Source of the DNA: Caldicellulosiruptor saccharolyticus DSM 8903
GTDB taxonomy: Bacteria > Bacillota > Thermoanaerobacteria > Caldicellulosiruptorales > Caldicellulosiruptoraceae
NCBI RefSeq assembly: GCF_000016545.1
Contig: NC_009437.1
Coordinates: 186,001 to 250,000 of the forward strand
DNA length: 64,000 bases
Direction: 5' to 3'
Under the pieces are notes generated by a model that saw only the letters and a program-made list of their open reading frames with translations, had not been told where the DNA came from and searched no databases. The position numbers were made by a program, and so were the translations under genes. Shown here piece after piece: positions 21,392-23,982 of this stretch (within the stretch, counting starts at the first letter, position 1; each line of letters opens with the position of its first letter).

Positions 21392-21644
21392 AAAAATATA
21401 GCAAGGAAATAGACCATTGTCAAGAAGGATGATGGGTGGTTTTGAAAAATCAAAAGAATTTAAATAAATGAGATGAAAAGAAAAAGATTTCTGTACTGCT
21501 TTTTTAAATTAATGTAGGTATTTACAACTTTGTATGGTTGTATTATAGATATAAAAGGGCACATCTTTTAATTTTCTTTGGTTCCAAACTCTGGTTTTAA
21601 ATAAAACATAAAAAGTTTAGTAAAAATTTGGAGGGAAATAAATT

Positions 21645-22078: not shown

Positions 22079-22382
22079 TGCGGTACCTATTAAAGCATTG
22101 GGGAAACTTAAAATGTATTCATATGCTGGATTGAAACAGCAGGAGAAAAAGGAATGCAAATTCCACCGCCAGATGAATATAAGAGGAAAAGTAGAGTGAA
22201 AACGTGTTTTGCGCACTCCAAAGTTGCTCAATAAACGACTGTCAGAGGAAGCCAAAAATGAAGGAGTTATCTTAAATTCTTTTATTCAACATCTAGTTTC
22301 AAATGCTTTAGGATTTAGTGACAATAAATCACATGGAATGGCTATTGATCTTGATGTTCTATATAAAGGGAAAATCAGATAA
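22079..22382 (+). pseudogene. Decayed copy of hicB
   Basis: The DNA from CTGGATTGAAACAGCAG onward closely follows the intact hicB at 23040-23525, including the IPPPDEYK segment, a degraded ribbon-helix-helix region and LNSFIQHLVSNALG. Several frame changes and stops break it. Its C-terminus reads NALGFSDNKSHGMAIDLDVL, then YKGKIR and a stop, so it lacks about 25 residues present at the end of the intact HicB. No hicA or secB-like sequence accompanies it. The gap to hicA (22383-22776) contains only a small terminator-like hairpin (AAAAAGCA/TGCTTTTT, 22388-22418) and the hicA operator. Confidence 0.75.
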
Positions 22383-22420: not shown

Positions 22421-22699
22421 TCGTAACACAATTCTCCTATCCCTGTTTATAATTATAAAAATCTTTCCATCCAGTATAAAGCCGTTGTGTAAATTTTCTC
22501 ATTGTGATAATATGTTATATAACAAAGAGAATCTATTCCTATAATCTCAATTATAAACAAAATCTTGTCGAAAGATGTCAAAAAGGCAGACTCAAGTTTG
22601 ATATTAATCTTCCATATAATATAATGACTAATTTCCAGTGGCTATAAAAAATATTGGGTTTAATATAGCAATTTAGAATTGAAAATTTTTGCTCAAAAT

Positions 22700-22717
22700 G
22701 ATATCATATATAGTATC
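22700..22717 (+). promoter_or_regulatory. Near-palindromic operator upstream of hicA
   Basis: GATATCATATATAGTATC is an almost perfect 18-base palindrome located 60 bases before hicA. Ribbon-helix-helix antitoxins such as HicB bind palindromes of this kind to repress their operon; that role is inferred. Confidence 0.5.
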
Positions 22718-22776
22718 AAAACATATAAGCAAATATAGAAGAGGAAAAATGCAAATATAAATGGAGTTGCAAATAA

Positions 22777-23028
22777 ATGAGTCAGATTGAAAAGTTACTC
22801 AAGAGTTTAGAAGAAAACCCAAAGCATGTTGTATTTACAGATTTGGATAAGATTTTAAAGCACTTTGGGTTTGAAGGGAGAGAACCTAAAAGTGGCTCAA
22901 GTCATGTTACATATTCTCATCCGTTACTTGCAGAAATATTGACAATTCCTCACTGTGACAAACATGTAAAACCGGTATATGTTAAAAAAGCGTTGAGGCT
23001 TATAAGACAGCTGAAAGATCAGTTTTAG
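22777..23028 (+). CDS. hicA: HicA-family mRNA interferase toxin
   Basis: The 83 aa protein has the double-stranded-RNA-binding-like HicA fold pattern: LDKILKHFGFEGREPKSGSSHVTYSHP, with the conserved His in SSHVTYSHP, then KPVYVKKALRLI. HicA cleaves mRNA and is neutralised by HicB. The N-terminal extension is a little longer than in the shortest HicA proteins. The hicB gene follows after two bases. It appears intact. Confidence 0.85.
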   Translation: MSQIEKLLKSLEENPKHVVFTDLDKILKHFGFEGREPKSGSSHVTYSHPLLAEILTIPHCDKHVKPVYVKKALRLIRQLKDQF

Positions 23029-23039
23029 GAGTGATAGGA

Positions 23040-23525
23040 ATGGATTATAAAGTAGAGATTATAAAACTCTCAGAAGAAGATGGAGGCGGATATTTAGCAA
23101 TTGTTCCAAAGCTTCCCGGGTGTATGTCTGACGGAAGTACCCCACATGAAGCATTAGAAAATGTTCAAGATGCAATCAAATGCTGGATTGAAACAGCAAG
23201 AGAAAAAGGAAGACAAATTCCACCCCCAGATGAGTATAAAGAAGAAGAGTACAGCGGAAGACTTGTTTTGCGCATTCCAAAGTCGCTTCATAAGCACTTG
23301 GCAGAGGAAGCAAAAAAAGAAGGTGTCAGCTTAAATTCCTTTATTCAACATTTGATTTCTTACGCTTTGGGATGTAGAGAAAATAAAACGCAAGAATTGG
23401 CTATTCCATATATTCCTGGTTCTACTCTTAAAGGATCGATCCGGAAATTATTTATAAAAAAAGAGCACTACAATCCTCCCGTTTTACAGCTGGGTAATTT
23501 CCAACAAAAAGATAGGAGTGATTAA
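23040..23525 (+). CDS. hicB: HicB antitoxin with C-terminal extension (putative chaperone-addiction tail)
   Basis: The degraded RNase H-like HicB domain covers about residues 1-65 (LSEEDGGGYLAIVPKLPGCMSDG), followed by a ribbon-helix-helix DNA-binding segment (LVLRIPKSLHKHLAEEAKKE, GVSLNSFIQHLISYALG). After that comes a tail of about 45 residues beginning ELAIPYIPGSTLKGSIRKLF and ending NFQQKDRSD. The decayed hicB copy upstream stops after YKGKIR, so the final 25 residues are specific to this copy. AGGAG lies 5 bases after the hicA stop; ATG at 23040 is preferred over GTG at 23031. The next gene encodes a SecB-like protein. Confidence 0.85.
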   Translation: MDYKVEIIKLSEEDGGGYLAIVPKLPGCMSDGSTPHEALENVQDAIKCWIETAREKGRQIPPPDEYKEEEYSGRLVLRIPKSLHKHLAEEAKKEGVSLNSFIQHLISYALGCRENKTQELAIPYIPGSTLKGSIRKLFIKKEHYNPPVLQLGNFQQKDRSD

Positions 23526-23526
23526 T

Positions 23527-23982
23527 TTGCCAAAAAAGAAAAGACATAGCTTATCATTAAAAGATTTAATAAAAGGAGTTGCAGTATTTTTGCAGGATGT
23601 GGAAGCAAAAAGCATGTTAGATTTATCGAATCCTCCTAAATCATTAGATCATACACTAAACTATGATTATAAAATTGTAAACATTGAAAATAACCAAGTA
23701 AACATTAAATTAGTGATAAATATTGAAAGTATACCTGAAAATCTTTTTAAGATAAAATTAGAGGTAATAGGAAAATACTTATTTAAAGAAGCCATTAGTG
23801 AAGAGATGGTTTTAAATGATGTTCCTTTTTTACTTGATGCACTTGCACCTGAAGTAAGCTATATAGTGAGTTTTTTGACAGACAGAATGTTAAAACAGCC
23901 ATACATTATCCCGCCTATAATTTCACTTGAGTTGGATGTTCCAAAAGAGACAAAAAAGAAAAATACAAAAGCCTCCATCTAA
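23527..23982 (+). CDS. SecB-like chaperone of a toxin-antitoxin-chaperone module
   Basis: The 152-154 aa protein has the size and strand pattern of SecB: alternating beta segments (YDYKIVNIENNQVNIKLVI, LFKIKLEVIGKYLF), then the helix-like ALAPEVSYIVSFLTDRML and the proline-rich turn QPYIIPPIISLELDVP, the positions of the conserved fPyiRe...lppi region in SecB and in the mycobacterial TAC chaperone Rv1957. AGGAG fits the TTG at 23527 (8-base gap); a GTG at 23518 overlaps the hicB stop. Canonical SecB is usually absent from Firmicutes, so a dedicated chaperone for HicB is the most economical reading. The assignment is from pattern only. Confidence 0.62.
   Translation: MPKKKRHSLSLKDLIKGVAVFLQDVEAKSMLDLSNPPKSLDHTLNYDYKIVNIENNQVNIKLVINIESIPENLFKIKLEVIGKYLFKEAISEEMVLNDVPFLLDALAPEVSYIVSFLTDRMLKQPYIIPPIISLELDVPKETKKKNTKASI

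Follow-up and report, generated by a model that had tools for sequence, protein, structure and literature searches.

Sequence comparison and structural modeling make it very likely that three genes in the genome of Caldicellulosiruptor saccharolyticus DSM 8903 form a type II toxin-antitoxin-chaperone (TAC) operon with a chaperone-addicted HicB, in which a C-terminal tail would destabilize the antitoxin unless a SecB-fold chaperone binds it. The triad, hicA-hicB-third gene, spans positions 22777 to 23982 on the plus strand of the window (the whole 64,000-nucleotide stretch analyzed here). TACs consist of HigBA, HicAB, or MqsRA paired with a SecB-like chaperone (PMC5105189). In the window, toxin and antitoxin belong to type II TAC families, a SecB-like chaperone is encoded in the same operon, and the antitoxin carries an extension absent from chaperone-independent relatives. 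The parts of this reading that were observed here are the gene order, the protein families, the predicted SecB fold, the association of tail with chaperone, and the conserved operator. A first-pass annotation of this DNA had proposed a HicA-HicB-SecB-like TAC, a proposal now supported by fold, profile comparison, and conservation of the triad.

The predicted HicA toxin (22777 to 23028, plus strand; 83 amino acids) carries a GSSH motif and matches PF07927 (1.3e-8; 35.3 bits against a cutoff of 27). HicB (23040 to 23525, plus strand; best start ATG at 23040, yielding 161 residues) joins a HicB-like N-terminal domain to a ribbon-helix-helix domain and the tail. It exceeds the cutoffs of PF05534 (51.6 bits) and PF15919 (43.9 bits), and its modeled core resembles solved HicB antitoxins in structure comparison. 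The third gene (23527 to 23982, plus strand; TTG start) encodes the SecB-fold chaperone of 151 amino acids, not 152 as first annotated, since the 152 codons count the stop. Gaps of 11 nt between hicA and hicB and 1 nt between hicB and the third gene separate the coding sequences, and AGGAG-type ribosome sites lie 5' of the latter two. The tight linkage and the toxin and antitoxin assignments of the first-pass annotation are thus borne out, the latter by all three Pfam families.

An AlphaFold2 model of the third protein, built from six relatives, is of moderate confidence (pLDDT 76.4, pTM 0.69) and has four long antiparallel strands (residues 15 to 29, 41 to 53, 57 to 69, and 74 to 86) followed by a helix (107 to 122). 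SecB and Rv1957 led its Foldseek matches. A second structural aligner placed Rv1957 bound to a chaperone-addiction (ChAD) peptide on top (Z 13.3, 2.4 Å, 122 residues), followed by the SecB proteins of E. coli (Z 12.8) and H. influenzae; SecB and Rv1957 entries ranged from Z 12.4 to 13.3, streptococcal proteins of unknown function reached Z 10.3 and 9.7, and the best unrelated entry reached Z 5.7. A profile built from 17 relatives of the third protein gave evidence that does not depend on the model: across 127 columns it aligned to one built from 12 other TAC chaperones (hhalign 96.7%, E 3.8e-10), and the latter profile retrieved H. influenzae SecB (2.4e-11) and Rv1957 (1.4e-4) from the PDB. 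The SecB- and Rv1957-like reading proposed at first is supported by the predicted structure and by the profile link.

Searching Pfam, NCBIfam, PADLOC, and PDB sequences with the third protein, alone or as a profile, gave no SecB match, and PF02556 matched neither it nor any of the 17 relatives. For this reason we call it SecB-fold or SecB-like and not a PF02556 member. The first-pass annotation had proposed comparing the product with SecB (PF02556) and with Rv1957; structure and profile comparisons came out positive, while a direct PF02556 match did not. Judged from model and profiles, the third protein is SecB-like in predicted fold and in ancestry, on a branch beyond the reach of PF02556. 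That Pfam, NCBIfam, and PADLOC miss this chaperone branch is a new detail. Chance-level matches in the sequence searches, such as a designed repeat protein, were discarded, and a match to phrog_21664 (E 0.001), a family of unknown function, was uninformative. Viral contigs, plasmids, and phages yielded no relatives in the searches used. Close Thermoanaerobacterium copies of the chaperone gene differ by few, mostly synonymous changes (dN/dS of about 0.07 to 0.11).

The extra C-terminal tail of HicB is real. It covers 49 amino acids (23376 to 23522, plus strand; about residues 113 to 161) and is predicted to be disordered, with AlphaFold2 pLDDT below 50, which fits an unbound ChAD. Measured with one hidden Markov model (HMM) for the HicB core, 37 to 66 residues extend past the core in HicBs encoded beside a chaperone gene, compared with 4 to 24 in intact HicBs without one, where values of 22 to 24 partly reflect the end of the HMM match. 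Exceptions to the short tails of HicBs lacking a chaperone are remnants in two genomes. Chaperone addiction through C-terminal antitoxin tails, including that of one HicB, is experimentally established (PMC5105189), and by analogy the window tail is probably a ChAD sequence. In M. tuberculosis HigA1, the chaperone buries W108 of the ChAD, a residue with a major role in the interaction (PMC6377645). A tail tryptophan is present in 12 of 12 other aligned TAC HicBs but absent from the window HicB, where a narrower alignment puts a phenylalanine at or close to the tryptophan column. This tryptophan characterizes the HicAB-SecB group of this phylum as delimited here; published definitions of TACs do not include it, and TAC antitoxin tails are highly variable (PMC5105189). 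We considered a frameshift that hides the tryptophan, but although the other frames do contain tryptophan codons, they show nothing like the tails of relatives.

The same gene order is found in Thermoanaerobacter and Thermoanaerobacterium, with third-protein identities of 31 to 38%, which argues that the arrangement is not due to chance. Beyond these two genera, it occurs in 9 others among 398 genomes sampled from the phylum. In that sample, the chaperone profile matched 19 genomes; inspection of neighborhoods and a hicA search placed hicA-hicB directly upstream in 12 (the host included), left the gene alone in 5, and assigned weak matches in long frames to the remaining 2. These data bear on a simpler explanation, in which HicAB is a plain, self-sufficient pair and the adjoining gene, for an export or general SecB-like chaperone, lies there by accident. 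The five chaperone relatives remote from any hicAB (L069, L072, L075, L076, and L077) indicate that the family can exist without the pair. However, the recurrence of the order in unrelated genera, the gaps of 11 and 1 nt, and the way tail length tracks the presence of the chaperone gene make an accidental neighbor unlikely.

A palindromic operator precedes the triad. The 20-bp palindrome TGATATCATATATAGTATCA (22699 to 22718, unstranded; 13-nt arms, 85% complementarity) overlaps the -10 element of the best-placed candidate sigma-70 promoter (22679 to 22707, plus strand; TTGAAA, 17 nt, TATCAT; 10 of 12 consensus positions, TG before the -10). The promoter is a consensus match, in a region with 11 such matches against 7.3 expected, and is weak alone. 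The degenerate palindrome consensus TGRTATCATATATRGTRYCA occurs at one place in the window against 0.03 expected, and sequence closely resembling it lies 5' of hicA in the other sampled HicAB-SecB or decayed loci, across genera. By analogy, HicB probably autoregulates at this palindrome.

In the TAC reading, HicA would, as its family suggests, be an mRNA-cleaving toxin. HicB would bind it and, through the ribbon-helix-helix domain, repress the operon from the palindrome that overlaps the -10 box. If known TACs are a guide, the disordered tail would make HicB unstable or prone to aggregation unless bound by the co-encoded SecB-fold chaperone. Stress or phage infection could then titrate the chaperone or stop its synthesis, upon which HicB would be degraded and HicA would halt translation.

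The history of the site raises the question of whether the window copy is itself decaying and no longer works. Decayed copies of the module were found in four genomes (G006, G010, G036, and G035). Remnants lie after bioY in two congeners: in G010 they comprise much of hicB plus the ends of hicA and of the chaperone gene, and in G006 the end of hicB is fused to what looks like the end of the chaperone gene. In G011, the counterpart of window position 21424 leads after 36 bp into the counterpart of position 23961, so that the whole segment is missing. In the window, a degenerate, frameshifted second hicB (22093 to 22382, plus strand) lies outside the working module and shares 79% DNA identity with 23149 to 23405, its frames broken. 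These decayed, absent, and dead copies, along with a tail devoid of tryptophan, would fit a locus in decay. On the other hand, all three window open reading frames are full length with start sites and motifs intact, and the operator is intact, leaving a nonfunctional window copy only a slim chance. We favor a functional TAC operon on what is probably an old site: the remnants beside bioY in G010 and G006, together with the absence from G011, suggest that the module was probably present there in the common ancestor and was then repeatedly lost or broken. Repeated loss or breakage is usual for toxin-antitoxin genes. Also new is that the congeners examined have lost the module or carry it in decayed form, so that its benefit may be transient. 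In G005 and G011 the second hicB shows 94% conservation and adjoins a flotillin-like gene instead.

The HicAB-SecB TAC of Methylomonas methanica MC09 (Mmet-TAC) is similarly composed of HicA, a HicB with a C-terminal extension of about 40 residues, and a SecB-like chaperone, and control by its chaperone was demonstrated in vivo (PMC5105189). It differs in being gammaproteobacterial, and its likeness to the window module is drawn from the published description. The M. tuberculosis TAC Rv1955-Rv1956-Rv1957 (HigB1-HigA1-SecB-TA) shares the three-part logic, and its chaperone is the top structural match; its tail is recognized through an aromatic residue, and most HicAB-SecB members here keep a tryptophan. 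Unlike the window module, it is a HigBA and not a HicAB system, the chaperone alignment has 14% identity, and the window tail has no tryptophan. CmdTAC, or PD-T4-9, an anti-phage system (PMC11618068, PMC9519451), likewise combines a SecB-fold chaperone with an unstable antitoxin, and a homologous operon lies elsewhere in the host genome. Its toxin, however, is an ADP-ribosyltransferase, and the chaperone of the host homolog matches PF02556, which the window protein does not.

SecB-linked modules are not confined to this locus. The host genome has two further PF02556 SecB proteins, both in TAC-like operons. One is the CmdTAC-like operon (L045, 4261 to 5556; G000:C1:683260-684555), with an ADP-ribosyltransferase-like toxin, a 111-amino-acid antitoxin, and a PF02556 chaperone as third gene; the toxin matches PD-T4-9_A and the chaperone PD-T4-9_C. 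The other SecB gene (L046, 3639 to 5093) follows an antitoxin-like gene that is cut off beside transposase genes, and the gene after this secB has an E-x-K nuclease-like motif and, by eye, reads like a PD-(D/E)XK nuclease. A longer version of the cut-off antitoxin-like gene is present in the congener G011 (L049). In two congeners (L048, 2987 to 3831, and L053, 1733 to 3084), a HigA-like antitoxin gene and secB lie near a DinB-type polymerase gene. A HigB-like toxin is present in L053, and the L048 operon lies near CmdTAC-like toxin and antitoxin genes.

PF02556 genes at an E value of at most 1e-4 occur in 21 of 299 sampled genomes and are thus uncommon, though not absent, in the phylum. Essentially all of the loci inspected lie within TAC-like operons, with ADP-ribosyltransferase, MqsR/HigB-like, acetyltransferase-like, or nuclease-like partners; these partners were assigned by eye, at loci of which a few are incomplete. 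At one of the loci (L100, reverse strand; 389 to 1821 after reverse complementation), a GNAT acetyltransferase-like gene, an unknown gene, and secB lie in a row, possibly a TAC with a GNAT toxin. The initial statement that SecB is normally absent from Firmicutes is right about rarity but missed this pattern of TAC-like operons, which suggests that SecB-domain genes in the phylum mostly belong to TAC-like modules rather than to protein export. SecB-like sequences were reported in Firmicutes in 2014, along with the preference of SecB outside the alpha-, beta-, and gammaproteobacteria for toxin-antitoxin operons (PMC4257090).

The initial claim that a SecB-linked HicAB in a Firmicute is a new setting is weakened by the in vivo function of Mmet-TAC, the published Firmicute SecB-like genes, and the two further host PF02556 genes. 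The system is real but not unprecedented, and the same genome and genus carry several other modules built on a SecB-like helper. In the literature searched, we found no paper joining Thermoanaerobacter or Caldicellulosiruptor with TAC-type modules. HicAB-SecB modules, probably chaperone-addicted, recur as a family among Gram-positive anaerobes, several of which are thermophilic, and their chaperones form a SecB-fold branch that existing family libraries do not detect. CmdTAC and MqsRAC protect E. coli from phages (PMC11618068, PMC9519451), which makes the HicAB-SecB modules candidates for phage defense in thermophiles. Heat-stable proteins could also aid in solving a complete toxin-antitoxin-chaperone complex.

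A stretch of the HicB tail resembles CRISPR proteins. Some 20 residues of the segment PYIPGSTLKGSIR, which includes PGSTLKG (23415 to 23435), match RAMP models, among them those for Csm3 and Csm5 (best PADLOC value 1.1e-5). PGSTLKG also lies near the N terminus of a SecB-linked antitoxin-like protein of Thermoanaerobacterium (L050, 2349 to 2957), which passes the Pfam RAMP cutoff (26.9 against 22.1 bits); the motif is thus common to two unrelated SecB-linked antitoxins, and its presence in the HicB tail is a further new detail. In a census by codon pattern, 37 genomes of the class gave 65 places, 30 of which were inspected; among these, open-frame occurrences of PGS[ST]LKG were Cas RAMP-like, save two Thermoanaerobacterium antitoxin copies, and the window HicB adds another non-Cas occurrence. 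One could imagine that the tail mimics the glycine-rich Cas7/RAMP loop PYIPGSTLKGSIR and that antitoxin and Cas RAMP subunits share or compete for the chaperone, tying the toxin to the state of a type III CRISPR effector. However, two of the three motif-bearing Thermoanaerobacterium genomes (G016 and G029) had no Cas-like match to the codon pattern, and the tail of the dead second hicB, though partly alignable, does not contain the motif (MAIDLDVLYKGKIR versus LAIPYIPGSTLKGSIR). On these observations, the similarity is possibly convergent and a CRISPR connection very improbable. We also rejected the idea that the tail was recently derived from a csm gene in the host genome, as the likeness to csm3 and csm5 is a short peptide similarity and the tail of the dead second hicB counters such an origin. 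At another locus (L166, 5808 to 10456), the type III CRISPR genes csm3 and csm5 are followed closely by an ordinary hicAB pair.
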